NCBI GenBank assembly: GCA_003567685.1 | Contig: PWYW01000009.1 | Location: 1-64,000 of the forward strand | Source of the DNA: Gammaproteobacteria bacterium | GTDB taxonomy: Bacteria; Pseudomonadota; Gammaproteobacteria; Xanthomonadales; Wenzhouxiangellaceae | Direction of reading: 5' to 3' | DNA: 64,000 bases | Shown: piece after piece, positions 10,396-54,823 of the stretch | How positions within the stretch are numbered: the first letter of the stretch is position 1 | Layout: every line of letters begins with the position of its first letter | Program-made: the position numbers and the translations under genes | Notes under the pieces: model-generated | Databases searched by the model: none | What the model saw: the letters and a program-made list of their open reading frames with translations, nothing else | Told to the model about the DNA's origin: nothing

Positions 10396-13300
10396 CTACT
10401 GGAAGCGATCCGAGAAAATCACATCCCCCAACTCGCCCAGCCCCACTGGCAGGGAGAACTCCGAGCTGTTGCCCGCATCGTCGGTCGCCATGCCCACCAG
10501 CTCGTCACTGGGCGAAAGCAATCCGGCCGGCACGCTGAATGCACCGTCGACGAACTCGGTAGCGTCGGGCGCCGCGTAGGTCTCGGTATGCAAGAGGCGA
10601 TCAGGCTGTCCCGCGACAATCTGGTAGATATCGATCCTAATCGGGTAATTGGCGTTGCTGGCCAGGGTGTCGACCCGAACCCTGAAGTTCACCGTATTGG
10701 ACCCCTCGTCGAACAGGGTTCCATCGGTATCGAACTCGGGCGGATTCTGCAGACGGTTCGGGCCGTCCTGGCCGCCGCCCGGGTCGGTTCCGCCGGCTGA
10801 ATCACCCAACTGCACCGGCACATCGGTCGCCACGAAACGGTTGCCACGCAGGCTGTTTCGAAGAATGACTGAATTGCTGTCGGTGCTGTTGAGCAGAATA
10901 CCGGTTGCCTGGTGGCCAATGACATTGCCAAAGGCGCCAGCACTGGCATCAGCATGGTTGGCGGGGATGGTCACCGTCGCCCCGTAGCCGACGATATTCT
11001 CCAAAGTGGTTGGACCCGCCGAGCCGGTCGTGATCAAGACCCCGACCGGGCCGTTTCCAGCCGGCGAGCCGTCCGGAAGCACACCAATCCAGTTGCCCCG
11101 AATACGGTTGCTGCGGCCGGTCGCCAGGCCAATACCGCGTTCCTGGTTGAAGGCAATGATGTTGCCGTCACCATCGTCACCACCAATGTCGGTGCGCCCG
11201 GCGCCCATGCCGAACAGGCCCGTGCCGTTGGGTCGGGGCTGGTCGTCCTCGTCGACACCAATGCGGTTGCGGTAGAACTCGATCAGACCGTCCGGCGACG
11301 TATCGAAGGGGTGGCTGTACACGACACCAGTCTGCTGGTTGCCGCCAATCATGTTGTCTTCAATGACTTGTCCGCCGGCAAAAATCTGGATGCCGTGGGC
11401 CGAGTGGTCGAGCAGGTGACTGCCGGCAACACGGTTGCCAGTGCTGGCGATACGCACGCCAACGGAGTGATTGGCGATTCGGCTGGCAACGATCTCATGG
11501 CCCGAACCCTCATCAATCCGGATGGCGGTGGTTGGCGCACCGACATTGACACCGCCCGGCGTCACCCCGACAAAGGCACCGGCAATGACATGCCCACTGC
11601 CTTGCAGCAAGATGGCCGAACTACCGCCATGGCCGATAACGTTGGCGCCCTGACCGATTACCAGGCCACTGGTGAGCTGGTGGTTTTCGCCAAACAGGCG
11701 AACGCCGATGCTGGCATGGCCGAAATTCTCATCGGCCGGGTCATCCGGATTGACCCCAACCCAATTTGAGGCCATTGATACGCCGTCGTTTTGCACATTG
11801 ATGCCAATGCCATTGGCAACGATGACATTGCCCTGACACACCTGGTTGGGCGGCAGCCCGGTGCACTGCCCGATATGGATATCCGCCCCGGCATTGCCAG
11901 TGATATCGACACCCCGGTTATTGCCGGCCGGGCTCAGACTGCCGTTGGCCAAACGCCCGGCACCGATCACGTTGCCGACAACCACCGCCTGGCTGGCTGA
12001 GGCCTGCATGATGATGCCGCGCTCACCATTGTCGGCAATCCAGTTGTTGTCAATCAGTATGCCGCTGACACTGTTGACCACGATCCCATCCAGGTTGTTG
12101 CCCGCTGCCACGAAGGCGCCGTTCTGCGGACGCAAGCCCACCAGATTGTCGCGGAACACCAGGTTGCTGCCGCCGTCGATTCTCAGCCCGGACGTGGGCG
12201 AGTTGATCAGCGCGACATGCCGAATTTCGCTGTTGCTGGCCGAGACCAAGCGCAGCAGGCGATCAGCCCCACTGAGGTTGGCGCCCGAGACCACCACGGA
12301 CGGCCCATTGGCCGGGTTGAAGTCCGGGTGGGTTTCGCCGGCCAGGGTCACGTTGCTGCCAATGGGTGGCAGTTCACTGGTCGGGCTGAAAGTGGTTATG
12401 CCGTTGGTCGCCAGAATGTCTTCCCAGAAAGTAATGGTGACCGGCTCAGCGCGGTTATTGGCGGCCTGGATGGCGGCACGCAGCGTGCAGGTGGGCACGC
12501 CCGGCGCCTGGAATGGTGCGCCGGTATCGCAGACCGTGCTGTTCGGGTCGGCATTGGGCTGGTCGATGAAGGTGCTGATCACGATCCCTTCGATCGGATC
12601 CACACCCGGCTGCAGCTCGACCGGCGCGGCAGTGAACTCCGAGCTGTTACCGTCGGCGTCGGTGGCCATTGCCACCAGCAAGGCGCCTTCCAGGTCATGT
12701 CCACCCACCGGGCTCAGGCTGCCACTCAGCCAGTTCTCGGCCGAGCTTTCGGGATAAACCGTCGACCCGATGTACAGGCGCCCTTGTGCCTCGCCGGCAT
12801 CGGACAGGTAGAAATCCACGCGCAGCGGATATTCGGCGTTGGCCGGGGCGGTGGGCACCTGCAGGCGATAAACCAGATTGCCGGTTGCCGTGTCGATGAA
12901 GGTAGCCGCCGGGTCCAACTGCGGATGATTCATCAAGCGATTGGGGCCTTCCTGCGCGCCACCAGGGTCGATAAAGCCCGCATTGGGACCAAGTTGAACG
13001 CCCGCCTCGGCATTATCGTAGATCTGGTTACCGCGGACGCGAATCTGGTTTAGGTTGACATTCGATTGAGCCGTGTTGATCAACACGCCGTAATCATTAT
13101 GAGCAATGACATTGCCGAACGCACCGACGTCGCCGCCCACCGGATTGGCGGGAATCACATCATTGGTATTGAAGCCAACCAGGACGGAACCGCCGGCGGC
13201 ACTTGAGGCCAGCGACGTGATGGCGATACCAGGGCCCTGGTTGCCGGCAGGCGTGCCATCCGGCAACACGCCGACCCAGTTACCCTTGATCTCGTTTCCG

Positions 13301-16300
13301 GCAGCGCGGTCCAGGAAAATACCGGCCACGGTGTTGAACGCGACAATGTTGCCGTCGTTATCATCGTTTCCAATCCGAGCCAACCCCGGGTTGGATGCGT
13401 AAATACCGGTGCCGTTCGGCAACGGTGAGTCATCGAGGTCTACCCCAATTCGGTTGCGCAAGATATTGACGATTTCACTGTTGGGGCTTTCATGCCCGTA
13501 GAGCACGCCAAACTGGCCGTTACCACCAATCACGTTCTGCGTGATCTGCTGGGGACCGGTGTTGACCTGAATGCCATGGAGCTGGTTATTGAGAATGCGT
13601 GAGGTCTGGACCGTGGTGCCAACACCTTCGAGCACGATGCCGCGCTCGTTATGGGCAACCCGCGCCGCGACAATGAAATTATTGTTTCCGGACTCGACAT
13701 GAATGCCATAGCGACCATTGCCCACATCGCCCCCGCCCGGAACCATGCCGGAAAACACAGCAACGGTCGAGTGACTGTCGCCGTTAATCACCAGTCCGTC
13801 GTTGCCCGAGTGGCCAATGATGTTGGAACCATCACCGATAAAGGTACCGCCCAGGCCACCGACCATCGTATGGTTCGTTCCGAACAAACGAACGCCGTCC
13901 TGCTGGCTGCCGAAACTGGCATCGGCCGGGCTGTCGGGATTGACTCCCACCCAATTGCCAGCCATGTAGACACCGCTGCCGTCGATCAACAGCCCGGTGC
14001 CGTTGGCGACCACGGTATTCCCCGGGCAGTCGACGATAGGCGGCATACCCGTGCATTGACCGATTCGGATATCGCTGCCGGCCGTGGGCAACACGTTGAT
14101 ACCCACATTGTTTCCAAGCGGCGTCAGATTGCCAGCGCTATCCCGGCCGGCACCGATAACGTTGCCGATCAGCAGAATATCCGTTGCCCCACCGCGCAGA
14201 TCCACGCCTCGCTGACCATTATCAGCGGACCAGTTGTCAAGCAATTGAACGCCAGAAGAGCTTGTTACTTGAATCCCGTTGAGGTTGTTCCCGGCAGCAA
14301 CAAACGCCCCCGCTTCCGGCCGAAGGCCGATCAGTGTGTCGCTGACAAGCACGTTGCTGCTATTGGAAATTGAAAGTCCTTCTCGCGGTGAATTGACCAG
14401 CGCAATATGTCTCAGCTCGACATCGCTGGCCCCGCTGACACGAAGCAGGCCATTACTGGTCGACTGGCTCTGACCGCTGATCACCACGGCTGGCCCATTG
14501 GCCGGGTCAAAGGCTGAATGGCTTTCACCAGCCAGGGTTACCGATGCGGAAATTGCAGGCAACGGGGTCAGCGGCGAGAACGTGGATACGCCGCCTGGCG
14601 CGACCAGCCCCTCCCAGAACGTAATGGTCACCGGGTCAGCATGATTGTTGGCTGCCTGGATCGCTGCGCGCAGGGTGCAGTTGGGCACACCGGGCGCGAC
14701 GAATGGCTGGCCGGTATCGCAGTTCAGGCTGGCCGGGTCGGCATTGGGCGCATCGCCGAACGAACTGATGATGATGTTATCCAGCGGCGATGGGCTGCCG
14801 AACGACAAGTCGGCTGGCATGGCGCTGAACTCTGAACTGTTGCCCTGGTTATCGGTGGCCATCGCCACAATGAGCGCCGACTCCAGGGCATAGCCACCTA
14901 CCGGCGAGAACGAACCCGACACCCAGGTGTTGGCATCAGCGGCCTCGTAGTCAACTGAACCGAGGTAGAAACGTCCTTGTGACTCTCCCGAATCGGTAAT
15001 GTGGAAATCCAGCCGCAGCGGGTAGCTCGCCTGGCTCGCTGCCGTGGGAACCCTGACTCGATACTCGATGGTTCCGGATCCGGCATCAAAAAATGTGGCG
15101 TTGTCGTCCAGTTGCGGATGGTTCAGCAAACGATTGGGACCTTCGCCAGCGCCCTCGTTAATGCCGCCAATAGTGCTGAAAATCTGGACGCCGCCATCGC
15201 TGTTGGCAAAGATCCGATTACCCCGAATTCGATTGCGCTCGGCCGACATACTGGTTGATTCACGGGTGACGCGAACGCCGACCGAGTTATAGGCAATGAT
15301 GTTGCCCATTCCACCGCCGCCGAGACCGTCTGGCACATGATCGGCTGGAATGGCCTGAACGGTGCCATAACCAACCAAATTGAAATCAGCGGGGAAGCTG
15401 GCAATGGTGCCGTTGATAAGCACCCCGTAACCCCCGTTGCCGCGCGCAGTCCCATCAGGCATCACGCCAATGAAATTGGACCGCACCGTACTGCCCTCGC
15501 TTGAGTTGAGCACCAGCCCATCCGTGACGTTGGCAGCGATCACGTTGCCGTCGTCAGGACCACCCCCGACAATCACCGTGGCAGCATTGACCCCAATGCC
15601 ATTGGCGTTCGGGATCGACGCTCCATCCGGTCGAACGCCTACATAGTTTGCACGCAACTCGGCGGCTTCGGTGACACCACCAGGATAGGACAGGCCCAAG
15701 CCGAGGATCTCATGCAGACCGACGACGTTTTCTTCAATCACATGACGCCAGTCATTGATCTGAATGCCGACGCCGCCGTTTTTGATTACCTCATTACCGT
15801 TGATCAAGGTTGGCCCGCTCGACGAGTTGATACCGCCACCGTTTGCGGTAATCAGGTTGCCAGCGATGGTGTGGCCGCCTCCGGCGACAATGCGGATACC
15901 GTTGCCAACATTGCCAAATTCAGTGCCATCATCCAGGCCACCAATCCGGTTATCCGAAATGGTGTTGTCATTGCCGGAGGCAATCAGCACCCCTTCTTCA
16001 CCGCTATAAGCAATGGTATTGCCTGAGTTCAAGCCACTTGGCCCAAGGCCTGAGCCAACGAAAACATCACTGGCTGCAATTCGAATACCAGCGCCACCAT
16101 TCCCGAAATTAGCGTTGCCGGGGCTGTCAAAGTTCGCGCCGATGGTGTTGAACACCACGCTCTGTTGAGACCGCTGAATATGGATGCCATGGCCGTCATT
16201 GGCGACGACGAAATTGCCCTGGCAGAAGTTGCTGACTGGCGGCAGAATCAGGCAGCGTCCGATTTCGTTGTTGGCGCCGGCCGAACTCAGGATATGGATG

Positions 16301-17088
16301 CCCGGTCCGCCATTGCCACGTGGGGTCAGGTCACCGCTCGGCAGCAATTGCGCCCCGACCAGATTGCCGGCAATCAGGGAATTGGTGGACCCGGAGCCGG
16401 CAACCCGGATGCCGCCCTGGTCGTTGTCAGCAATCCGATTGCCGAGAACCTGAGAACCGCTGCTATTGTTCAGGCTGACCCCGAAATTGCTGTTGCCGGC
16501 GGGCACGTCAAGACTGAGCAGGTTGTACAAGCCAAGCCGGTTGTCCTGGATGACGACGTTATCGGCATTGCTGACGGAAATACCGTGGTTGGCGGCATCA
16601 CGGATGGCAACATTGCGAATGATCGTTCCACTGGCCGCGCTGCCGCTGATGAAAAAGCCGCTGCTGTTCGTCGTGACGTTGCCGCCATCGATTTGGACGC
16701 GCTGGAAACCAGTGCCGGCGTCAAAATTGGGATGGGTTTCGCCAGAGATCGTGATTCGTCGGCTTATCGTCGGCAAAGCGCTGCCAAGAATGATCCGTGA
16801 GGAAACTCCGTCGTTGATGCCATCGCCCGCCGGTGGCACGGGAATCTCACTGAAACTCACCGTCACATTGGTAGAGGTCCGATTATTGTTGGCCTGAATG
16901 GCCGCACGCAAGGTGCAGGTTCCAGCGGTGGACACGCAACTGATCGAGCCGGTGGTGGCCAGCGGCTCATCGCCCACGGAGTTGACCAGGAAGGTCTGCC
17001 CCCAGGCCATGGGCACCAGGCCCAACCAGACAATGGCAGCCACCATGGGCCACCCCGCCCCGCGACGTTTGTGAGACTCCCCGATCAT
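10396..17088 (-). CDS. Giant secreted CSLREA-domain right-handed beta-helix protein with three tandem modules
   Basis: About 2230 aa starting at ATG 17088. I prefer this start because AGGAG lies 9 nt upstream and a signal peptide follows (hydrophobic VAAIVWLGLVPMAWG, cleavage before QTF). Upstream in-frame codons back to 17190 overlap the maeB terminator. Three modules follow (residues ~31-766, 767-1499, 1500-2221). Each opens with a CSLREA-type N-domain (Cys, then CTLRAAIQA-NN), continues as many Asn/Gly-rich right-handed parallel beta-helix coils (for example GNVIGAG, NWVGVNPD, NRIGV-DD), and ends with a beta-sandwich segment closing in ATD-GNSSEF. The protein ends in DVIFSDRFQ. The family is known as secreted or surface protein in environmental bacteria; its ligand is unknown. 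Adhesion or polysaccharide binding is an inference. It has its own terminator, so it is probably a single-gene transcript. Confidence 0.9.
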   Translation of the reverse strand: MIGESHKRRGAGWPMVAAIVWLGLVPMAWGQTFLVNSVGDEPLATTGSISCVSTAGTCTLRAAIQANNNRTSTNVTVSFSEIPVPPAGDGINDGVSSRIILGSALPTISRRITISGETHPNFDAGTGFQRVQIDGGNVTTNSSGFFISGSAASGTIIRNVAIRDAANHGISVSNADNVVIQDNRLGLYNLLSLDVPAGNSNFGVSLNNSSGSQVLGNRIADNDQGGIRVAGSGSTNSLIAGNLVGAQLLPSGDLTPRGNGGPGIHILSSAGANNEIGRCLILPPVSNFCQGNFVVANDGHGIHIQRSQQSVVFNTIGANFDSPGNANFGNGGAGIRIAASDVFVGSGLGPSGLNSGNTIAYSGEEGVLIASGNDNTISDNRIGGLDDGTEFGNVGNGIRIVAGGGHTIAGNLITANGGGINSSSGPTLINGNEVIKNGGVGIQINDWRHVIEENVVGLHEILGLGLSYPGGVTEAAELRANYVGVRPDGASIPNANGIGVNAATVIVGGGPDDGNVIAANVTDGLVLNSSEGSTVRSNFIGVMPDGTARGNGGYGVLINGTIASFPADFNLVGYGTVQAIPADHVPDGLGGGGMGNIIAYNSVGVRVTRESTSMSAERNRIRGNRIFANSDGGVQIFSTIGGINEGAGEGPNRLLNHPQLDDNATFFDAGSGTIEYRVRVPTAASQASYPLRLDFHITDSGESQGRFYLGSVDYEAADANTWVSGSFSPVGGYALESALIVAMATDNQGNSSEFSAMPADLSFGSPSPLDNIIISSFGDAPNADPASLNCDTGQPFVAPGVPNCTLRAAIQAANNHADPVTITFWEGLVAPGGVSTFSPLTPLPAISASVTLAGESHSAFDPANGPAVVISGQSQSTSNGLLRVSGASDVELRHIALVNSPREGLSISNSSNVLVSDTLIGLRPEAGAFVAAGNNLNGIQVTSSSGVQLLDNWSADNGQRGVDLRGGATDILLIGNVIGAGRDSAGNLTPLGNNVGINVLPTAGSDIRIGQCTGMPPIVDCPGNTVVANGTGLLIDGSGVYMAGNWVGVNPDSPADASFGSQQDGVRLFGTNHTMVGGLGGTFIGDGSNIIGHSGNDGLVINGDSHSTVAVFSGMVPGGGDVGNGRYGIHVESGNNNFIVAARVAHNERGIVLEGVGTTVQTSRILNNQLHGIQVNTGPQQITQNVIGGNGQFGVLYGHESPNSEIVNILRNRIGVDLDDSPLPNGTGIYASNPGLARIGNDDNDGNIVAFNTVAGIFLDRAAGNEIKGNWVGVLPDGTPAGNQGPGIAITSLASSAAGGSVLVGFNTNDVIPANPVGGDVGAFGNVIAHNDYGVLINTAQSNVNLNQIRVRGNQIYDNAEAGVQLGPNAGFIDPGGAQEGPNRLMNHPQLDPAATFIDTATGNLVYRLQVPTAPANAEYPLRVDFYLSDAGEAQGRLYIGSTVYPESSAENWLSGSLSPVGGHDLEGALLVAMATDADGNSSEFTAAPVELQPGVDPIEGIVISTFIDQPNADPNSTVCDTGAPFQAPGVPTCTLRAAIQAANNRAEPVTITFWEDILATNGITTFSPTSELPPIGSNVTLAGETHPDFNPANGPSVVVSGANLSGADRLLRLVSASNSEIRHVALINSPTSGLRIDGGSNLVFRDNLVGLRPQNGAFVAAGNNLDGIVVNSVSGILIDNNWIADNGERGIIMQASASQAVVVGNVIGAGRLANGSLSPAGNNRGVDITGNAGADIHIGQCTGLPPNQVCQGNVIVANGIGINVQNDGVSMASNWVGVNPDDPADENFGHASIGVRLFGENHQLTSGLVIGQGANVIGHGGSSAILLQGSGHVIAGAFVGVTPGGVNVGAPTTAIRIDEGSGHEIVASRIANHSVGVRIASTGNRVAGSHLLDHSAHGIQIFAGGQVIEDNMIGGNQQTGVVYSHPFDTSPDGLIEFYRNRIGVDEDDQPRPNGTGLFGMGAGRTDIGGDDGDGNIIAFNQERGIGLATGRSNRIRGNWIGVLPDGSPAGNGPVGVLITTGSAGPTTLENIVGYGATVTIPANHADASAGAFGNVIGHQATGILLNSTDSNSVILRNSLRGNRFVATDVPVQLGDSAGGTDPGGGQDGPNRLQNPPEFDTDGTLFDEGSNTVNFRVRVDTLASNANYPIRIDIYQIVAGQPDRLLHTETYAAPDATEFVDGAFSVPAGLLSPSDELVGMATDDAGNSSEFSLPVGLGELGDVIFSDRFQ
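10426..16998 (-). repeat. Triplicated ~2.2-kb coding modules
   Basis: Approximate module limits are 14791-16998, 12591-14790 and 10426-12590 (about 2208, 2200 and 2165 bp). Modules 2 and 3 are most alike: both open with NADP(A/N)S---CDTG-PF-APGVP-CTLRAAIQAANN, and their DNA is also clearly similar near 12460-12560 and 14640-14740. Module 1 is more diverged in its first part. The near-equal lengths indicate duplication of a whole domain unit. Confidence 0.8.
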
Positions 17089-17174
17089 GATCCTGCACTC
17101 CTGCTTGACGATGTAATTGGAAAAAGCCGCGCGCCAACAGGCCCCAGCGGTCCAGCCCTGATTTCGCAAGACGG

Positions 17175-17203
17175 AAAAAAAAACGGCCACCCGAAGGTGG
17201 CCG
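17175..17203 (-). terminator. Rho-independent terminator of maeB
   Basis: A perfect 8-bp stem (17184-17191 with 17196-17203) with a 4-nt loop, followed on the minus strand by nine T residues (complement of 17175-17183). It lies between the maeB stop and the giant gene start, which separates the two transcripts. Confidence 0.9.
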
Positions 17204-43876: not shown

Positions 43877-44884
43877 TCAGGCCTTGGCCAGAACCGTTGC
43901 GGTGTCGAGCATGCGGTTGGAGAAGCCCCACTCGTTGTCGTACCAGCTCAGTACTTTGACCAGGCGGCCGCCGGAGACTTTGGTCAGCGAGGCATCAAAG
44001 ACCGAGGAACGCGGGTCGTGGTTGAAGTCGACCGAGACCAGCGGGGCATCGTTGTAGCCCAGGATGCCCTTGAGTTCGCCTTCGCTGGCAGCCTTGACCA
44101 CGCGGTTGACTTCTTCAACGGTGGTGTCGCGGCTGGCGATGAACGACAGATCCACCACCGACACATTGATGGTGGGCACACGCATGGCAAAACCGTCGAG
44201 CTTGCCGTCGAGTTCCGGCAGCACCAGACCCACGGCAGCCGCGGCACCGGTCTTGGTCGGGATCTGGCTCATGGTGGCCGACCGCGCGCGACGCAGATCC
44301 GAGTGGTATACGTCGGTGAGCACCTGGTCGTTGGTGTAGGCATGAATGGTCGTCATCAAGCCCGATTCCAGGCCGATGGAGTCGTGCAGCGGCTTGACCA
44401 GCGGAGCCAGGCAGTTGGTGGTGCAAGAGGCGTTCGAGACCACGTCGTGCTCGGCCTTGATCACGTCATGGTTGACGCCGTAAACCACGGTCGGCAGATC
44501 CTTGCCCGCCGGGGCGGAAATCAGCACCTTGCGGGCGCCGGCCTTGAGGTGGGCCGAGGCCTTGTCCTTGCTGTTGAAAAAGCCGGTGCACTCCATCACG
44601 ATATCGACGCCCATCTCGCCCCAGGGCAGTTGCGAGGGATCGCGCTGGGCCAGCACGCGGATGCGATCACCATTGACGATCAAGTGGTCACCATCGACCT
44701 GGACATCGCCGTTGAACTTGCCGTGGGCGGTGTCAAAACGGGTCAGGTGTGCGTTAGTTTCCGTGTCGCCCAGGTCATTGATCGCAACAATCTGGATATC
44801 GCCATTGCGGCCCGACTCATACAGCGCGCGCAGAATGTTCCGGCCGATGCGGCCATAACCGTTGATCGCTACCTTGATCGTCAT
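43877..44884 (-). CDS. gap: Glyceraldehyde-3-phosphate dehydrogenase, type I
   Basis: A 335-aa NAD(P)-dependent enzyme that oxidises and phosphorylates glyceraldehyde 3-phosphate. Motifs are [19 protein letters not shown] (Rossmann fold), [12 protein letters not shown] with catalytic C154, [31 protein letters not shown] and [14 protein letters not shown] use ATG 44884 (GGAGAG at 7 nt) instead of 44899. A TACAAT hexamer lies 41 nt upstream. Erythrose-4-phosphate dehydrogenase (Epd) is the close alternative; the pgk neighbour and the tkt-gap-pgk order favour gap. Confidence 0.95.
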
Positions 44885-44924
44885 TTCGAGACTCTCCATC
44901 CGGTGAGAAATAGGGTAACTTGCT

Positions 44925-44930
44925 ATTGTA
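44925..44930 (-). promoter_or_regulatory. Candidate -10 element upstream of gap
   Basis: TACAAT on the minus strand, 41 nt from the gap ATG, in the 142-bp region shared with the divergent sigma-factor gene. The -35 region is GC-rich and weak. Confidence 0.35.
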
Positions 44931-44990
44931 ACGCCCTGCCGCGCCGCGAACCAGACGCCAGCCCGCGAACTGCCGGCGTTTCGATTTGGG

Positions 44991-44996
44991 TATAGT
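44991..44996 (+). promoter_or_regulatory. Candidate -10 element upstream of the ECF sigma gene
   Basis: TATAGT on the plus strand, 30 nt from the ATG at 45027, the only AT-rich hexamer in a GC-rich stretch. No good -35 is visible. Confidence 0.3.
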
Positions 44997-45026
44997 TGAA
45001 ATCATCGAAACCTGCCGGCCAGACTC

Positions 45027-45617
45027 ATGGATGAAGTCAGCGACGGAGAAGTCACCCAGCTAATCGAAGAACTGCGCCAGGATCCCGACCAGTTCGAGCG
45101 GCTGATCCCGCTGATGTACAACGACCTGCGGCGAATTGGTCATAACCAGCGCGCGGCAGCCGGTTTCATCGCCGGACCGACCCTGCAAACCACCGCCCTG
45201 GTCAACGAGGCCTTCCTGAAGCTTCGCGGACGCCTTGACCAGGGCTGCGAGAACCGCCTCCACTTCCAGCGCCTGATGGCCAAGGTGATGCGCCAGCTGA
45301 TCATCGACTACGCACGTCGACAGTTGGCCGAGAAGCGCGGAGGCTTGCAGGCACATGAAACACTTACCGAGGCTCACCATGCGGCCGACGACCAGGCCAG
45401 TCAGGATTCAGACTTCACCCTAGCGGTCGAAGAGGCGCTGAAAACGCTGGAAGCCGACAACCCACGGCAGGCCGAGATCCTCGCCGCCACGCTCTATGCC
45501 GGCTATACCTCCAGGGAATTGGCCGACATCCTTGACTTGTCAGAGCGCACGATCAGGCGGGAGCTGCAAAAAGGACGCGCCTGGTTGATGATTGCGCTGG
45601 ACGATGCTCGGCCCTGA
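45027..45617 (+). CDS. ECF-type RNA polymerase sigma factor (TIGR02999-like)
   Basis: A 196-aa extracytoplasmic-function sigma factor. Region 2 is present: LMYNDLRRIGHNQRAAAG, LQTTALVNEAFLKLRGR, then FQRLMAKVMRQLIIDYARRQ and AEKRGG. Region 4 shows a helix-turn-helix: YTSRELADILDLSERTIRRE. The sequence style (ALVNEA-LKL ... ARRRAA-KRGG) matches the TIGR02999 group. No anti-sigma gene follows; instead two Ser/Thr kinase genes lie downstream on the same strand (117 bp). For some ECF groups linked to kinases (EcfP/PknT of Vibrio parahaemolyticus) phosphorylation of the sigma factor is required; this locus may work likewise (inference). Confidence 0.93.
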   Translation: MDEVSDGEVTQLIEELRQDPDQFERLIPLMYNDLRRIGHNQRAAAGFIAGPTLQTTALVNEAFLKLRGRLDQGCENRLHFQRLMAKVMRQLIIDYARRQLAEKRGGLQAHETLTEAHHAADDQASQDSDFTLAVEEALKTLEADNPRQAEILAATLYAGYTSRELADILDLSERTIRRELQKGRAWLMIALDDARP

Positions 45618-45734
45618 GCTGCCGATGAAAACGTTCTCCATGGCCTTGGTGATCGGTCGCTCGGCAGAGTCGCAGCCGGGCGTTTCAGACGGGCTCAGAC
45701 TTGAATGTTCCACCCTCGGGAAAGGACGATAAGC

Positions 45735-48305
45735 ATGGCTCTACCGTTGACCCCTCGCCGCCATCGACTGATTGACCGGTTACTTGACGACCTTCTCGAC
45801 CTGAATGAAGAAGAGCGGGAAGAGCGTCTTGACGCCTTGGCAGAGAGGCATCCTCGCGTTCACAAGATGCTGGTTCGGCTGTTACGGGCCAGTGTCGCGC
45901 CCACGCTGGCGATCGGGCAATCGATTGCCCAACTCGCTCTAATGGAAGCCGAGTCCGGCCGAGTCGAAGAAAATCACCTGCCCGCTGGCACCCGTCTCGG
46001 ACCTTGGAGAATTCTTGGGCCTGCCGGCAAAGGCGGCATGGGGTTGGTATATGAAGGCGAGCGGGCCGACGGTGCTTTCAAGATGCGGGCAGCGATCAAG
46101 CTGATTCGACTGAGAAAGCGTGACCTCGAAGAACGCCTGCAGCAGGAAAGAGAACTGATGGCTCGACTAAGCCATCCAGGCATTGCGCGTCTGATCGACG
46201 GCGGTGAAACTCTTGATGGCGGTGCTTACCTGGTCATGGAATGGATTGACGGCGAGGATTTGAGCCACGCATGGCGGCCGGGTGAAAACACTGTTGATCA
46301 AACAATCTCCCGATTTTTCGGCCTGTGCGATGCAATCTCACATGCACATCAACGGCTAGTCATCCACGGCGATATCAAGCCCGGGAATGTCAGGATCGAC
46401 AGTGACGGCAATCTACGATTGCTGGATTTTGGCATCTCCCGTTTGCTTCAGGATGGCCCTGCTACGAAGGGGCAGCCCCGCGCGATGACGCCGGGGTTCG
46501 CCGCCCCCGAATTGCAAGCCGGTGGCCACGGCGGAACGACCGCCGACATCTGGGCCCTGGGCGCGCTCCTTTTCTGGATGCTAACTGGGCAAAACCCCGA
46601 CTTGGTGACAGGGTCCAGCATCCGCGCCGTGACCAACCGGTTGCCAGCTTGCCCCCGGCAGAGGGATCTTGCCGCAATCCTGATCCGAGCCTGCCAGATT
46701 GAGCCTTCTCAGCGATACGCAAGTGTCGGCGAACTGGCTTCTGACCTTTCGCGATATCAGCGCGCTGAGCCGGTTTCCGCTCGGCCAGCGAAACGTACCT
46801 ACTTGCTCGCGCGATTCATCGGACGTCACCGCATGGCCAGCACGATGACGGTTGCCGCGCTGCTTGGCTTGGCGAGCCTATCGATGGTCGCCGTTTTTCA
46901 GGCGCGCCTCGCCGGTATCGAACGCGATCGAGCGCAGCTGGAAGCGACTCGAGCAACCCAAGTCAGTGATTTTCTGGTGAACCTGTTCGAACAAGCCGAC
47001 CCAGGTCAACATCTCGGTGAACGCCTCAGTGTCTATGAACTGCTCGATATCGGCCGCGACCACGCGAAAGACCTGGTCTCCATACCTGACCAGCAGGCCA
47101 TCATGCTGATTACCTTGGCCAGAGTCTACCGCGCACTGGGCCAGCCAGATCAAGCGGTCGAACTGGCCCGGCAAGCAGTCACCATCGACACTATCGATGA
47201 TGCCGATTGGCGGGCAGCGGCGTCGCTCACCCTGGCGCGCTCCCTGATTGACACTCATCAGGCTACAGAAGCAGAGCAGTTGCTGGACAGACTGGCACGA
47301 ATAGCAAAGGATTCGGAAAACACCATTGATTCTCGGCCAACCACCTACCCCCATCATTACCTTGAAATTTTGCTTGCGCAGGCGCGCCTGGCGAATACGA
47401 CGGGCAACGAGGAGCGCGCCATCGACCTATTGAACTCGGCCGAGGCACTATTCAGCCAGGACACGCCTCCGCGATTGCAGGCCGAGCAACAGACTCTGCT
47501 CGGCGCGGCTCGGTTTCAAAACAGCGACTACGCCATGGCACAGCGCCATTTCGAAAACGCGTTGGAACTGCATACGGTTGCCCGAGGCGCGCGGCACCCG
47601 CGCACTCTCGACACGATCAACTTCCTCGCACAGTCACTGGCCCAGCTTGGCCGTGTCGATGAGGCCAGAGAGCGCCTGATGGCCTCCTTGGCGATTCGCC
47701 AGCAGGTGCTGCAGATTGGTCATCCCCTGATTGCCTATGATCTGCATAGCATCGGCTCGACTTACTGGCTGGAGCGAGACTTCGACAACGCCCTGCACTG
47801 GTGGAAACGGGCACTGGAAACTCGCCAGCAACAACAGCCACCAGACCTGGCCGAGCTGAGCACCACTCAGAACGGGCTCGCCTTGGCTTTAATGGAAACA
47901 GGGCAAAAAAAAGAAGCTGAAGCGATGCTTGAGGATGCGCTGGAAAACGCCTTGGCTGTCTATGGCCGAGAGCATTTGCGGGTCGCGTCGATCATTGCGA
48001 ATCAGGGCATCCCGCCATCACGAAGGGGTGAGCTGTCGACTGCGCTGGGCTTCCATCGGGAGGCGTTGGCTATCCGTCGAAAAATTGCCGGCAAATACCA
48101 TCACCACACTGGGCATTCGAAAGCCAGTATAGCGGGAATATTTTTGCGCAAAGGCGATCTGGAGGAGGCTGAGCGATGGCTGGGCAAGGCACTCCCCGTG
48201 TACGACGAAATCTTTCCCGAGTCCGATCACCCGCAGCGTGCCATGCTTCAACGGATTGAACGTGATTTAACTCTGGCGATTGAGGACAGTCGAGACAATG
48301 ACTGA
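45735..48305 (+). CDS. Serine/threonine protein kinase with transmembrane helix and TPR domain (paralog 1)
   Basis: An 856-aa protein. ATG at 45735 is behind AAAGGAC. Residues 1-75 are a conserved helical N-segment shared with the next gene. The Hanks-type kinase domain (~90-345) has GPAGKGGMGLVYEG, K122 in AAIKLIR, E140, HGDIKPGNV with D213 and N218, and DFG at 231. The catalytic loop is HGD instead of HRD, a non-RD kinase. One membrane helix (~365-385) is followed by a ~470-residue TPR region with repeats such as AEQLLDRLARIAKDSENTI and YAMAQRHFENALELH. TPRs presumably sense or recruit partners outside the cytoplasm. The start of the next kinase gene is 30 bp downstream. It is probably in one operon with the ECF sigma gene. 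Confidence 0.92.
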   Translation: MALPLTPRRHRLIDRLLDDLLDLNEEEREERLDALAERHPRVHKMLVRLLRASVAPTLAIGQSIAQLALMEAESGRVEENHLPAGTRLGPWRILGPAGKGGMGLVYEGERADGAFKMRAAIKLIRLRKRDLEERLQQERELMARLSHPGIARLIDGGETLDGGAYLVMEWIDGEDLSHAWRPGENTVDQTISRFFGLCDAISHAHQRLVIHGDIKPGNVRIDSDGNLRLLDFGISRLLQDGPATKGQPRAMTPGFAAPELQAGGHGGTTADIWALGALLFWMLTGQNPDLVTGSSIRAVTNRLPACPRQRDLAAILIRACQIEPSQRYASVGELASDLSRYQRAEPVSARPAKRTYLLARFIGRHRMASTMTVAALLGLASLSMVAVFQARLAGIERDRAQLEATRATQVSDFLVNLFEQADPGQHLGERLSVYELLDIGRDHAKDLVSIPDQQAIMLITLARVYRALGQPDQAVELARQAVTIDTIDDADWRAAASLTLARSLIDTHQATEAEQLLDRLARIAKDSENTIDSRPTTYPHHYLEILLAQARLANTTGNEERAIDLLNSAEALFSQDTPPRLQAEQQTLLGAARFQNSDYAMAQRHFENALELHTVARGARHPRTLDTINFLAQSLAQLGRVDEARERLMASLAIRQQVLQIGHPLIAYDLHSIGSTYWLERDFDNALHWWKRALETRQQQQPPDLAELSTTQNGLALALMETGQKKEAEAMLEDALENALAVYGREHLRVASIIANQGIPPSRRGELSTALGFHREALAIRRKIAGKYHHHTGHSKASIAGIFLRKGDLEEAERWLGKALPVYDEIFPESDHPQRAMLQRIERDLTLAIEDSRDND

Positions 48306-48335
48306 GGTGCCTCTTTCGACACTTTGGTGCGAGTC

Positions 48336-50951
48336 ATGACGGCTCCACTTACGCCGGCTCGGCGCCGATTGCTGGATCGACTCCTCGATGAGTTGCTGGA
48401 CATGGCGCCTGCCGAACGCGAACAACGACTGGTCGCGATGGCCCAGCGTCAGCCTCGCTTGCACCGGCTGGTGAATCGGCTGGTGGTCGCCAGCACCACG
48501 CCAACCGAGCTGTTCTCCGAGTCGGTATCGCGCACGGCACAGCGGGCAGCCGAACAGCGGCGGGGTTCAGAACCCTTGCTGGAGTCGGGCGAATGCCTGG
48601 GTTCATGGCGAATCCTGGCACCCGCAGGTCGTGGTGGCATGGGCGTGGTGTATGAAGCCGAACGCGCCGATGGCGCCTTCGAGATGCGGGCGGCCATCAA
48701 ACTGATTGGTTCTGATCGACCCGGCATGGCAGAACGTCTTGCCCTGGAACGCCAGTTGCTTGCCCGGCTGAACCACCCCGGCATCTCACGCCTGATCGAC
48801 GGCGGCATCGCCGATGATGGTCACGGCTATCTGGTCATGGAGTGGGTAGACGGCGATGTTCTCAACAACGACCTGCGCCGGCAGTTCGACCCCCTGGCCT
48901 TGTTCGGCGACATTGCCGATGCCTTGATGCATGCGCATCAGCAATTGGTGGTTCACGGCGACATCAAGCCCGGCAACGTCCTGGTCTCCGGCGAAGGCCG
49001 GGCACGGCTGGTGGATTTTGGCGTTGCCCGGCTGCTGGTGGATGAGCAGCTTGCCGTCGAACCCGGGCTGCGGGCGCTGACTCCCTCCTTTGCCGCCCCC
49101 GAACTGCTGGCCGGCGAACCACCCAGCACCCAATCCGACATCTGGGCCCTGGGCGTGCTGCTGAGCTGGCTGCATACCGGCCGCCTGCCAAACGGTGACG
49201 GCTCGCCGCCGAGCGCGCCAATCGTGAACCACCCCCGCTCGGCAGACCTCGATGCAGTGATTGCCAAAGCCTGCGCCGCCGACCCGGCCCAGCGCTATCC
49301 GTCGGTGGCCGCGCTGGCCGACGAGATTCAATGCCTGCGACAACACGTTGGCATCCAGGCGCGACCGCCCGGTGCCGTCCGGCGAATGCGCCTCTGGTCA
49401 CGCCGCAACCCGGTCGGGGCCGGCCTGGCGGCCACACTGACGATTGGCGTGTTATTAGCAGCCTCGGTGTTCGGCTGGCAGGCTCAGGTTGTCCGTGCCG
49501 AACGCGACCTCGCCCGGCTGGAAAACCTTCGCTGGGAAGTCATGCGCAACCAGATGGTCGAGCTGTTCAGTGCCGCCGCACAAGACCACGCCGATGAAGA
49601 GGTGAGCGCGCGCAACCTGCTTGACGGCTCGGTTGAACGAATGGAAGCACTGCTCGCCGGAGATACCCTGGGTCGTGCCTACACCAGCAGCATGCTGGGT
49701 TCGCTGTACGTGGCCCTGCAGGATTACCACAATGCGGCCCAGGTACTGCGGCCGCTGCTGGACGAGACCGGAGACCCTCTGCCGCCGATGCTGAAAAGCG
49801 GCATCTTCGGTGACCTGGCGCTGGCAGAAGTCCACTTGGGCAATCATCAGCGCGCACTGGAGCTATCCGAGCAGGCGCTGGAGATGGTCGAGCGACAAGC
49901 CGGGGACTATCGCCAACGTCAGTCCCAACTCCACCAGACTCGAGGCAGCGCGCTGCGTGGGCTGGGGGACTGGCCGGGCTCAATTGATGCCCTTGAGCGG
50001 GCTGTCAGCCTGGCCGAAGCCGTGGATCGTGGCCCCAATCGCACCCTGGCCATGGCCCAGAACAACCTCGGTGTAAGCCTTTTCTACGCTGGGCAGCTGG
50101 AACCGGCGCGTGTCACCATGGAAGCCGCACTGGCTCATTGGCAGGCCCTGGGGCTGGGCGAGTTTGCCGATGCCCTGACGGTAATAAACAACCTGGCGAC
50201 GATCTATCACCAGCAAGGCGATTTGTCCCGTGCCCAGCAAGCCTATCGCGAGACCATTGCTCAGCGACGCCAGCGCTTCGGCGATTCGGCGGCGCTGGCC
50301 GCCACCATGAACAACCACGCACAGGTTCTGATGATCCAACACCGGCTGCCCGAGGCGCGCTCGGAAATCGACCAGGCTCTGGAAATGATGGGACGGTTCA
50401 ACGGCGTAAACAGCCCGCACTACGCGCTGATCCTGCGTTCTGCCGCTCAGCTGGCCTTGCTGGAAGATTCACTGGCCGAGGCGCGCGACCGGCTTGATCA
50501 GGCCGAAGCCATTCTGCTGGACTCACTGGGTGCCGACCACCTGTTCACCTTGCTGGTCAAGGCCCAATCCGCGCGCCTGCTGGCCAGGCAGGCTCCGTTG
50601 GACGCGCTGGAGCAATTTGACGAGCTGATTGACCGCCTGCGGGCGATGGGTCCCGGCACTGAAACTCACCTGGCCTCGGTTTACTGCGAACAAGCCATGG
50701 TGCAACTGCGGCTTGGCGATGCAGCATCGGCCACGGACACAGCCGGGCGGTGCCTGGCCTTGCGCACCGAGCGCCTGCCAACCGGGCACTGGGAGATCAG
50801 CGAGGCTGCTGCGCTTCAATCAGCCGCGCGCGTTCAGGCCGGGCAAGAGGAGGCCGCATCAACACTCAGCCACCAAGTGGAGCAACTTGCCCAGGTCTAT
50901 GGCCAACAACATCCGCGCCTGCAGTGGCTGCAGGCGCAGGTTGATCGTTAG
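48336..50951 (+). CDS. Serine/threonine protein kinase with transmembrane helix and TPR domain (paralog 2)
   Basis: An 871-aa protein, start at ATG 48336 (the frame reaches TTG 48324). The layout equals the preceding gene: N-segment LTPARRRLLDRLLDELLDM, kinase domain with APAGRGGMGVVYEA, K122 in AAIKLIG, HGDIKPGNV with D209 and N214, and DFG near 227, then a membrane helix (about residues 365-388) and a long TPR region (for example YHNAAQVLRPLLDETG, LSRAQQAYRETIAQRRQ). The N-segment and kinase parts are close to paralog 1, the TPR parts much less, so the sensor half diverged. Catalytic residues look intact, so it is not an obvious pseudokinase. It is convergent with tkt at 11 bp. Confidence 0.92.
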   Translation: MTAPLTPARRRLLDRLLDELLDMAPAEREQRLVAMAQRQPRLHRLVNRLVVASTTPTELFSESVSRTAQRAAEQRRGSEPLLESGECLGSWRILAPAGRGGMGVVYEAERADGAFEMRAAIKLIGSDRPGMAERLALERQLLARLNHPGISRLIDGGIADDGHGYLVMEWVDGDVLNNDLRRQFDPLALFGDIADALMHAHQQLVVHGDIKPGNVLVSGEGRARLVDFGVARLLVDEQLAVEPGLRALTPSFAAPELLAGEPPSTQSDIWALGVLLSWLHTGRLPNGDGSPPSAPIVNHPRSADLDAVIAKACAADPAQRYPSVAALADEIQCLRQHVGIQARPPGAVRRMRLWSRRNPVGAGLAATLTIGVLLAASVFGWQAQVVRAERDLARLENLRWEVMRNQMVELFSAAAQDHADEEVSARNLLDGSVERMEALLAGDTLGRAYTSSMLGSLYVALQDYHNAAQVLRPLLDETGDPLPPMLKSGIFGDLALAEVHLGNHQRALELSEQALEMVERQAGDYRQRQSQLHQTRGSALRGLGDWPGSIDALERAVSLAEAVDRGPNRTLAMAQNNLGVSLFYAGQLEPARVTMEAALAHWQALGLGEFADALTVINNLATIYHQQGDLSRAQQAYRETIAQRRQRFGDSAALAATMNNHAQVLMIQHRLPEARSEIDQALEMMGRFNGVNSPHYALILRSAAQLALLEDSLAEARDRLDQAEAILLDSLGADHLFTLLVKAQSARLLARQAPLDALEQFDELIDRLRAMGPGTETHLASVYCEQAMVQLRLGDAASATDTAGRCLALRTERLPTGHWEISEAAALQSAARVQAGQEEAASTLSHQVEQLAQVYGQQHPRLQWLQAQVDR

Positions 50952-50962
50952 GGAGACTTGAC

Positions 50963-52966
50963 TCAGCCAGCCAGCAGGCGTCGCACGGCATCCACGGCCG
51001 CTTGCGTGGTGAGGCCGTACTCGGCAAACAGCTGGTCAGCCGGGGCTGAGGCACCGAAGCGGTCAATCCCCATCACCTCACCGACATCGCCCACCAGGTG
51101 GCGCCAGTACAGGCTCACCCCGGCCTCGATGGCCAGGCGCGCCTTGACCGAACCAGGCAGCACCGATTCGCGATAGTCGGCCGGCTGGCTGGAAAACAGA
51201 TCCGGGTTGGGCATGGATACCACGCGCACATTGACCTTATCCTCGGCCAGCTTTTCGGCAGCGGCGACGGCCAGACCCACTTCGGAACCAGAGGCCATGA
51301 TGATGGCATCCGGCTGGCCGGCACCACTCTGGCGCAGCACGTAACCACCGCGATTGATGTTGCCCAGTTGAACTTCGTCGCGGGTAAGGTGCGGCAGGCC
51401 CTGGCGGGTGAGCACCAGCGCTGTGGGCGCGGTACGGCGCTGGATGGCGACACCCCAGGCGGCCAGGGTCTCGACCTTGTCGGCAGGACGCCAGACCTGA
51501 AGGTTGGGAATCAGACGCAGCGAGGCCACGTGCTCGACCGGCTGGTGCGTCGGGCCGTCCTCGCCCAGTCCAATCGAATCGTGGGTGTAAACGTGAATCG
51601 CGCCGGTCGGAATCAGGGCGGACATGCGAACCGCATTTCGAGCGTAATCGGAGAACACCAGGAAGGTGCCGGTGTAGGCGATGAAGCCGCCGTGCAGATC
51701 CAGACCGTTGGCAATGGCAGTCATGCCGAATTCGCGAACGCCATACGATACGTAATTGCCGCGGGCGAAATCCTCGACCACATCAATCGAGCCCGACCAA
51801 TCGGTGTTGTTCGAACCCGTCAGGTCGGCGGAGCCGCCGATCAACTCAGGCAGGGCCGGGGCCAGTGCCTCGATGCTCATTCCGGAGGCCTTGCGCGTGG
51901 CCACCTTGCTTTCGTCGGCCTGCATGGCCCGAACGGCATCCTCCAGCAGGCTGTCGAAGCCTTCGGGCAGGCGGCCCTCCATGCGGCGTGCCAGCTCGTC
52001 GGCCAGTTCCGGATGCACGTCCCGATAGGCCTGCCAGCGGGCCTGCCAGTCCGCTTCCATGGCCTGGCCGCGTTCGCGAGCATCCCAGCCGGACCGAATG
52101 TCGTCGGGAATCTCGAAGGGCGCATGCGGCCAAGCGATGGCTTCACGAGTGGCGGCAATTTCCTCATCGCCCAGCGGTGCACCATGGGTATCCGCGGTGC
52201 CGGCCTTGTTCGGCGAGCCGAAGCCGATGGTGGTCTTGCAGCAAATCAGCGTGGGCTGGTCCGCATTGGCCTTGGCCTCGACGATTGCTGAGTTGACTGC
52301 ATTGGCGTCGTGCCCGTCAACGGCCTCAATCACCTGCCAGCCGTAGGCACGGAAGCGTTCGGGCGTGTTGTCGGTAAACCAGCCGTCCACCTCGCCATCA
52401 ATCGAAATACCGTTGTCGTCATAGAAAACGACCAGCTTGCCCAGGCCCCAGGTGCCGGCCAGCGAACACACCTCGTGCGAAATGCCCTCCATCAGGCAGC
52501 CATCACCAACAAAAACGTAGGTGTGATGGTCAACCACCGAGTGCTCGCCCTGATTGAAGCGCGCAGCCAGCAGTTTTTCCGCCAGCGCCATGCCTACGGC
52601 ATTGGCCAGGCCCTGGCCCAGCGGACCGGTCGTGGTTTCCACGCCGGGCGCCTCTGCATACTCCGGATGGCCAGCGGTGGGCGAATGCAGTTGCCGGAAG
52701 TTACGGATGTCATCCATCGACAGGTCGTAGCCTGCCAGATGGAGCACGGAATACAGCAGCATGGAACCGTGGCCGTTTGAGACGACGAAGCGGTCGCGGT
52801 CCCACCATTTGGGGTTGGTCGGATTGTGCCGGAGATGGTCGTTATAGAGAACCTCGGCAATGTCGGCCATGCCCATCGGCATACCAGGGTGGCCCGAGTT
52901 GGCGCGCTGAACAGCATCCATGGACAAAGCGCGAATGGCGTTGGCGAGTTGGCGACGGTCGGTCAT
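50963..52966 (-). CDS. tkt: Transketolase
   Basis: A 667-aa thiamine-diphosphate enzyme of the pentose phosphate pathway, exchanging two-carbon units between sugar phosphates. Motifs include [60 protein letters not shown] (ThDP/metal), [12 protein letters not shown]-like [17 protein letters not shown] and [20 protein letters not shown] use ATG 52966, where the family N-terminus [14 protein letters not shown] begins; the longer frame to 53032 is unsupported. A usp gene lies upstream on the same strand, 78 bp apart. In many Gammaproteobacteria tkt precedes gap; here six kilobases of sigma/kinase genes intervene. Confidence 0.97.
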
Positions 52967-53488: not shown

Positions 53489-53800
53489 TGCGTTTTGCCT
53501 CCTCAACACTCGATAAGATCAAGCGACTGCCAAGCTGCGAGCCCGCTGTTGCAGACCAGTGTATGCCTCCGCCCGCTCGGCGGGAGGCACAGCGTGCCCA
53601 GCGCTGACTACAAGACCGAGTTGTGAACGTGATTTCGTTGCCAATTGTCTCCGTAAGCACCTGTTCAGTCGGCAGTTTCACAAAGACGTACTGGCAGAAT
53701 ACACAAGCTGTCTGCTACACTCGTGGCAAAAGTTAAACTTTTGTCGACTCCTGTTATCCAAGCAGGTACTTTGCAGCCTTTCAGGGATCTTGCCTTCATC
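53489..53800. other. Intergenic region between divergent usp and a secreted-protein gene
   Basis: 312 bp without a gene. It holds the usp ribosome-binding site (AGGAGG) at its left end, a GC-rich imperfect hairpin (53564-53589, TGCCTCC/GGAGGCA with an inner GCC/GGC pair), and an A/T-richer half from 53610 with a TACACT hexamer at 53716-53721 that could be the -10 of the gene starting at 53801. I see no coding potential, no tRNA and no repeat shared with elsewhere in the window. Confidence 0.5.
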
Positions 53801-54823
53801 ATGCTTAATTCACGTTCATGGATCACAGGCATTGCCTTGCTCGGCCTAACGGCCAGCGGGCTTGTGTGTGCCCAGACCGAACGTGCAATTGACCTCTCGC
53901 CGAGCGATACCCGAAGCGCGCCCTGGCAAGCACCCTCGGGCCTTGGCGCCATTGGCGGCGACCCGGTTTCTTTGGGCCGACCGCGGCTCACGATGCATTT
54001 GCCGCTCGATACGCCTGCAGACTTGGCCCGTCAGACGGAAACCGGACAGGGCCGTTTTTCATGGTCTCTGGAAGCTTGGCAACTGAACACGGCCAGCCTG
54101 GCGCACATTCACTGCAACCAGCATACGGCGACCATAGACAGCTTTATTGCCCAGGATTGCCGTTTTGTCGATCAGCCAGTGCCGGACAATGCGGTCAACC
54201 TGGTTCAGGTTCGCGGTGAATGGGTACCGGCCGCCGGGTTGTCGGTTGGCGTGGGTGCCTTCCATGGCGAGAGAACGCTCTCACCCCAGACGAATGCAGC
54301 TTCCGCCGCATTCACTCCGTTGACGGCCGGATTGGGCGACCTGGAGCTCGGCCCCGGCCGTCGCCAGGTCGATGGCCTTGATCTCAATGTCAGTTTTGGC
54401 CTGAGCACCGATCGTCTCGGCGATTTTCTGATGGGCCTGCAACTGGCGCGTTATCGCCAGCGCCACAGTCTCACTGACTTCGGTTTCCGCCCCGACGACC
54501 TGTTGCTTGGCGAGACGAACGCCGACTACCTGAACAGCGCACAACTCTCTCTCGGGTGGCGGCGCGGTAGTGTGGGCACAGAACTGCTCGGGCATTACCG
54601 GGAACTGCCATTCTGGATGAATCCGACCGGCTCATCCAGCAGCCTGAGTTCTTTTGATCTGGAATTCTCCTGGCGTCCGCGCAATTCCGCATTGAGCATT
54701 GGCATCAGCAATGTGCTCGACAGCTCACCGCGCGCGGATGAGGCGATTGACCCAGCCCGCGAAGAAGCAGCCGATTCCATCTTCGGCCGGATTCCCTACG
54801 TCCGTTACAAGCACGACCTGTAA
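53801..54823 (+). CDS. Secreted, probably outer-membrane beta-barrel-like protein of unknown family
   Basis: A 340-aa protein from ATG 53801. The signal peptide is ITGIALLGLTASGLVCAQ. The mature part alternates amphipathic strands (VNLVQVRGEWVPAAGLSVGV, LDLNVSFGLS, DFLMGLQLARYRQ, SAQLSLGWRRGSVGTELLGHY, SFDLEFSWRP, ALSIGISNVLD) with polar turns, as in an outer-membrane barrel, and ends YKHDL. SIGISNVLDSSPR is reminiscent of TonB-receptor C-terminal strands but there is no plug domain. Two Cys (HCNQHT, DCRF) may pair. I know no named family. Confidence 0.6.
   Translation: MLNSRSWITGIALLGLTASGLVCAQTERAIDLSPSDTRSAPWQAPSGLGAIGGDPVSLGRPRLTMHLPLDTPADLARQTETGQGRFSWSLEAWQLNTASLAHIHCNQHTATIDSFIAQDCRFVDQPVPDNAVNLVQVRGEWVPAAGLSVGVGAFHGERTLSPQTNAASAAFTPLTAGLGDLELGPGRRQVDGLDLNVSFGLSTDRLGDFLMGLQLARYRQRHSLTDFGFRPDDLLLGETNADYLNSAQLSLGWRRGSVGTELLGHYRELPFWMNPTGSSSSLSSFDLEFSWRPRNSALSIGISNVLDSSPRADEAIDPAREEAADSIFGRIPYVRYKHDL

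Follow-up and report, generated by a model that had tools for sequence, protein, structure and literature searches.

An ECF43-type sigma factor gene adjoined by two receptor kinase genes of separate origin, a candidate for two-signal control in a Wenzhouxiangellaceae genome

How is an extracytoplasmic function (ECF) sigma factor controlled when its gene is followed by two receptor kinase genes, and does the second kinase act on the same sigma factor as the first? These questions are raised by a locus within a 64,000-nucleotide stretch, here called the window (assembly GCA_003567685.1, contig PWYW01000009.1, positions 1 to 64,000), from a gammaproteobacterium of the family Wenzhouxiangellaceae. 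An ECF sigma factor gene (45027..45617) is followed by two genes, K1 (45735..48305) and K2 (48336..50951), all on the plus strand, each kinase gene encoding an N-terminal segment, a Ser/Thr kinase with an HGD-type catalytic loop, a membrane helix and a tetratricopeptide repeat (TPR) part. The original prediction had described one sigma gene followed by two kinase genes of the same layout, and the listing of open reading frames (ORFs), the Pfam domains and the helices confirm this arrangement. Our analysis suggests an ECF43-type sigma factor served by two receptor kinases, for which we see about an even chance that K1 provides a second periplasmic input to the sigma factor already paired with K2.

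The sigma protein (196 residues) matches the Pfam family Sigma70_ECF (E-value 9.3e-34, residues 8-192) with no other domains being present, matches the NCBIfam model TIGR02999 'ECF-type sigma factor' above cut-off, and has no match to a solved structure at an E-value of 0.01. Within region 2.2 it carries a QTTA motif (residues 54-57; 45186..45197, plus strand; motif as defined in PMC13147305), the second Thr of which, Thr56 (codon 45192-45194), does not vary among the aligned sequences (19 of 19, counting the sigma factor itself). In ECF43, an uncharged motif with the consensus QTTA is described as replacing the acidic DxxD/DAED of region 2.2 (PMC13147305, PMC8999054), i.e. acidic residues that otherwise bind the β' subunit of RNA polymerase, and the second Thr of the motif is reported to be phosphorylated by the linked kinase (for both, PMC8999054, PMC13147305, PMC8103513). 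As a further mark of this group, a Hanks-type kinase gene adjoins the sigma gene here and in eight of nine relatives. The best reading of the motif and of the alignment with EcfK-type sequences is that the sigma factor carries the marks of the phosphorylation-controlled group ECF43 and, by analogy with its characterised members, Thr56 is most likely the phosphosite.

The kinases fit this assignment. K1 and K2 match Pkinase (2e-33 and 4.1e-32; domain cores at 46023..46598 and 48624..49196, plus strand) and TPR_12 (6.9e-42 and 1.4e-30), and the motifs GxGGMG, AIK, HGDIKPGN, DFG and APE are complete in both. Each has an N-segment of about 85 residues, a kinase, a single strong hydrophobic helix by hydropathy (K1 residues 370-388, 46842..46898; K2 residues 359-377, 49413..49469; both plus strand) and a C-terminal TPR part, which would be exposed to the periplasm; residues of K1 are counted from 45735 and those of K2 from 48339, one residue short of the ATG at 48336. 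This is a PknS-like layout, PknS being described with an 83-residue N-segment, kinase, helix and TPR (PMC13147305), and the best solved-structure match with K1 as query is 9EED, the structure of the PknS kinase (PMC13147305). The catalytic loop is HGD in both kinases and not the RD-type HRD of PknS; among 96 kinases compared, HGD occurs in 69 and HRD in 26, the motif being absent in one. The QTTA motif with Thr56 and the best match of K1 being PknS point to a system of the EcfK-PknS and EcfP-PknT kind. The comparison with the Vibrio pair EcfP/PknT drawn in the original prediction is apt, and the Xanthomonas pair EcfK-PknS, which it did not name, shares the kinase layout. The ECF43 marks in the sigma factor together with the PknS layout in the kinases make it the best reading that the sigma factor is controlled by Ser/Thr phosphorylation and that no anti-sigma factor is involved, as had been proposed. 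We found no anti-sigma gene among the ORFs that flank the locus, which we take from their sequences to be pgk and gap at one end and tkt at the opposite end; the rest of the genome was not searched for one. Between K1 and K2, 41 of 84 residues are identical in the N-segment (48.8%), 133 of 252 in the kinase region (52.8%), 12 of 54 in the juxtamembrane part plus helix (22.2%) and 114 of 431 in the TPR part (26.5%), each regional alignment scoring above all 50 shuffles, so that the kinase halves are alike and the TPR halves diverged, as was noted from the start.

Which of the two kinases belongs to the sigma factor is indicated by its orthologues, which are 60-67% identical and occur in nine relatives. 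In eight of these the sigma gene runs directly into one kinase gene, the orthologue of K2, and each of these eight kinase genes has its ATG within the final part of the sigma gene (coding overlap). The eight genomes belong to the same genus as the source genome; their sigma factors are 63-67% identical to that of the window, and their kinases are 56-64% identical to K2 and 34-50% to K1 (in G016, only 129 residues of the kinase lie on the contig). K1 was not found between the sigma gene and the kinase in these eight loci, and the ninth relative, G030, shows none within the 4,992 bases of its contig. In a tree of the kinase regions of 96 kinases, K2 and its orthologues group at 100/100. K2 is thus likely to be the long-standing activator of the sigma factor.

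K1 belongs to a different branch. The original prediction had treated the kinases as a paralogous pair, which does not hold in the sense of local duplicates: K2 is the conserved partner, and a recent or local tandem duplication of one kinase is rejected when K1 and K2 are held together in a full-length tree (p-AU 1.13e-05 in the approximately unbiased test; 46 rows, a chosen part of the 96-kinase set). The nearest relatives of K1 are the kinases of G022 and G005 in the full-length tree (100/99) and the kinase of G029 in the kinase-region tree (96/92), so the two trees disagree on this point. They disagree as well on kinases encoded ahead of a sigma gene (kinase-then-sigma order): the kinase-region tree groups these with K1 (91/77, weak) and the full-length tree places them nearer to K2 (85/78), so that their link to K1 is no more than a possible one. 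The wider, weakly supported K1 side of the full-length tree includes one sigma-linked kinase, L053 of the source genome. The GC content at third codon positions (GC3) of K1 is 63, the lowest of nine source-genome kinases compared (others 67-75) and below all 24 window genes picked by a rule favouring high GC3 (mean 74.3, standard deviation 4.3); compared with 27 neutrally picked window ORFs (mean 71.9, standard deviation 5.6) it is only 1.6 standard deviations low, and two of these ORFs lie lower still, one or both of them being a shadow of gap. After this recount, GC3 speaks less strongly for K1 being a late arrival. K1 may have been inserted here, or it may have been lost from the ancestor of the other eight; the sigma tree, in which the sigma factor of the window forms the sister of that whole group, fits either course.

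It is the second kinase that makes the locus unusual, the sigma-kinase system itself being of a known kind. From public genomes we compared the best 80 of 189 confirmed sigma loci, 34 of which are informative, i.e. hold enough sequence to reveal a second adjacent kinase, the other 46 being cut by contig ends or having no adjacent kinase on the same strand. A second adjacent kinase occurs in none of the 34; in L174, which is among them, another kinase is encoded some 2 kb upstream of the sigma gene. Neighbouring kinases on the same strand were seen at four places only among the loci compared, namely the window, G063, G034 and G014, a sigma gene being present within 1.5 kb in the window alone. 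A search of titles and abstract openings, with subscription papers mostly outside its scope, turned up no case of an ECF43 sigma factor acted on by two kinases; the available parts of PMC8103513 and PMC11032199 describe neighbouring or tandemly duplicated kinases, but not the layout of a sigma factor with two kinases.

In G063 and G034 the full-length tree gives the same order as in the window, a K1-type followed by a K2-type kinase, a possible sign of an old tandem or of convergence; tandems of a K1-type and a K2-type kinase with overlapping ORFs and no sigma gene nearby are found in another genus of the family (L083:8592-13812 and L091:8129-13889). Such sigma-less tandems would suit a mode of action in which K1 and K2 form a relay or a mixed dimer, one receptor phosphorylating its partner or dimerising with it and the sigma factor being contacted by just one of the two, as would the identity of 52.8% between their kinase regions and the description of the extracytoplasmic parts of such kinases as typically promoting dimerisation (discussion of PMC13147305). 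We consider this quite unlikely, there being no evidence of an interface, the TPR parts being only 26.5% identical, and kinases of the K1 and K2 kinds each also occurring alone in other genomes.

Sigma gene, K1 and K2 probably form one operon, with co-transcription suggested by the layout of the DNA. The ORF of K1 opens at 45705 (866 residues to 48305); we take the in-frame ATG at 45735 as its start, which matches the N-terminus of K2 and is preceded by GGAAAGG. The ORF of K2 opens at a TTG at 48324 (875 residues), the in-frame ATG at 48336 being the likelier start. The spacers measure 117 nucleotides between the sigma gene and K1 and, with K2 starting at 48336, 30 nucleotides between K1 and K2, and a scan revealed no plus-strand terminator-like site at either junction. 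The promoter motif that the original prediction suggested looking for did not emerge: an alignment of nine stretches upstream of the sigma orthologues shows no evident shared motif, and a scan of 44850-51050 gave no sigma-70-type site. A 42-codon open frame (45604..45732, plus strand) begins at an ATG within the last codons of the sigma gene, the very site where the orthologues begin their kinase, and stops 2 nucleotides before the K1 start; it has no Pfam match. It may be a relic or a device for translational coupling, the latter being speculation.

We propose a model in which, without a signal, the sigma factor would stay idle as it lacks the acidic charge in region 2.2 for gripping RNA polymerase. 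K2 would sense a periplasmic signal through its TPR part and phosphorylate the sigma factor, most likely at Thr56 of the QTTA motif, thereby switching it on. K1, originating from another branch and having a different TPR part, would have been inserted between the sigma gene and K2, or kept only here, and would most likely bring a further periplasmic signal to bear on this sigma factor; we put the chance that K1 does phosphorylate it, and so acts as its second input, at about even. If both kinases act on it, signals would be integrated at the sigma factor itself.

It is also possible, although not the reading we would choose, that K1 is a neighbour with no role on this sigma factor, having landed in the operon and phosphorylating other proteins, so that only K2 pairs with the sigma factor. 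This is in line with the surroundings of K1-like kinases elsewhere. K1-like matches were compared in 20 regions. That of L095 contains a K2 orthologue, that of L093 a kinase of the kinase-then-sigma order, and in the remaining 18 the kinase has no sigma gene nearby, five of these 18 kinases lying less than 900 nucleotides from a contig end; L084 has a weak sigma match (E-value 4.9e-5) about 7 kb from its K1-like kinase. In G022 the K1 relative lies directly beside gap without a sigma gene, the sigma-K2 pair of this genome being on another contig. The low GC3 of K1 among the genome's kinases agrees with such a newcomer as well, less so when set against the neutrally picked window ORFs. A role as bystander is opposed by the location of K1 within the sigma-K2 unit, in the shared orientation and set off by short spacers, by its open frame with every motif present, and by the sigma factor of the window being alone in its nine-row clade in having a Thr at the second known phosphosite.

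Several observations weigh against K1 and K2 both serving this sigma factor. No sigma gene was seen beside the nearest relatives of K1 in G022, G005 and G029 (the G005 contig ends within the kinase gene), indicating that kinases of the K1 type can occur where no sigma gene is linked to them. G018 carries the K2 orthologue of L095 (60% identical, L095:8632-11256) between gap and tkt with no sigma gene in the 20-kb stretch around it, so that pairing in function cannot be read from linkage or from the lack of it. In the source genome, which has seven Sigma70_ECF matches and ten Pkinase matches (nine above cut-off), kinase and sigma genes adjoin at C46, C43, C62, C24 and at the window locus, and the kinases at C4, C47 and C20 have no sigma gene in the stretches examined, making cross-talk or other targets possible. 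PP2C_2, the only phosphatase family searched, has one match in this genome, elsewhere at C89.

At the place expected for the sigma gene, G018 has a lipoprotein-like ORF of 174 residues (11322-11846, minus strand) with no Pfam match. More generally, TPR receptor kinases and sigma factors of the ECF43 type are numerous in the relatives, and their gene order varies (sigma-kinase, kinase-sigma, divergent, unlinked), which makes them a good set for studying how pairing changes.

A more specific division of labour between the two kinases is suggested by the linker of the sigma factor, in which Thr112 and Thr114 (45360..45368, plus strand) align, gap-free from a KR pair, with Thr106 and Ser108 of EcfK. 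We placed the EcfK sites through a search of 299 genomes of the order with a stretch of PknS. Four genomes, presumably Xanthomonas, hold a kinase 91-93% identical to this stretch; six of eight loci gave a sigma protein, and the sigma proteins of L206-L209 hold QATE and VTLTISLS, with the numbering of L208 and L209 fitting T51, T104, T106, S108 and S110 of PMC13147305. In EcfK a single kinase phosphorylates both region 2.2 and the linker, and phosphorylation of either T51 or T106 is reported to suffice (PMC13147305). The position of Thr106 is occupied by Glu in seven and by Gln in one of the eight orthologues having K2 only, leaving the sigma factor of the window as the only member of its clade with a Thr there. 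A Thr is also found in ten sister-clade proteins of the kinase-then-sigma order and in one at a contig edge, and a Glu in three sigma factors without a kinase in sight. The locus could accordingly be read as a two-input, two-site switch with K2 acting on Thr56 and K1 on Thr112 (or Thr114), in which case each periplasmic signal would turn on the same regulon via its own residue, and the linker charge of the K1-less orthologues (Glu in seven of eight) would look as if hard-wired. We regard this as rather unlikely. Outside the clade, single-kinase sigma factors show Thr, Ser, Glu or Ala at this position, and some sigma factors without a linked kinase show Thr. The association of Thr112 with K1-like partners is two of two independent pairs, too few for the Thr/Glu contrast to reach significance, and the count includes the kinases of the kinase-then-sigma order among the K1-like ones, a grouping for which the full-length tree gives no support.

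That the two kinases were joined by an assembly or binning artefact is highly improbable. The source genome is a 2.74-Mb assembly in 107 contigs, which would leave room for such errors, but the locus sits inside a 92-kb contig; it is placed between pgk-gap and tkt, as is the K2 orthologue of G018, and the neighbours on the gap side are the same in G005 and G022. Elsewhere in the window, an ORF of 2264 residues (10396-17190, minus strand) contains seven stretches of right-handed beta-helix (Pfam Beta_helix 1.9e-33, NosD 2.5e-28) and probably encodes a large surface or secreted protein, and an ORF of 366 residues (53723-54823) has no Pfam match at an E-value of 0.01 and a low GC3 (64.6).

Comparison with known systems places the locus next to EcfK-PknS of Xanthomonas citri (ECF43), in which an ECF sigma gene likewise adjoins a kinase composed of N-segment, kinase, helix and periplasmic TPR, the Thr of region 2.2 is conserved and EcfK has a second phosphosite in its linker (PMC13147305). 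It differs in having two kinases instead of one, and HGD and QTTA in place of HRD and QATE. The cluster described for X. citri contains type VI secretion genes, whereas none were seen among the window neighbours, which we read as pgk, gap and tkt. EcfP-PknT of Vibrio parahaemolyticus (ECF43) shares, by its description, the uncharged motif in region 2.2 with a phosphorylated second Thr, STTA there and QTTA here (PMC8999054); it has one kinase and is reported to respond to polymyxin, a signal we do not predict here. The tandem TPR kinases of G063, G034 and G014 resemble the locus in having two same-strand kinases side by side but have no sigma gene within 1.5 kb. The closest counterparts are the single-kinase orthologues of the same genus, in which the sigma gene is followed by K2 in eight genomes; they differ in the absence of K1, in the overlap of sigma and kinase genes and in having Glu or Gln instead of Thr in the linker. 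These orthologues provide ready controls, and would allow one-site and two-site activation to be compared across sister species.

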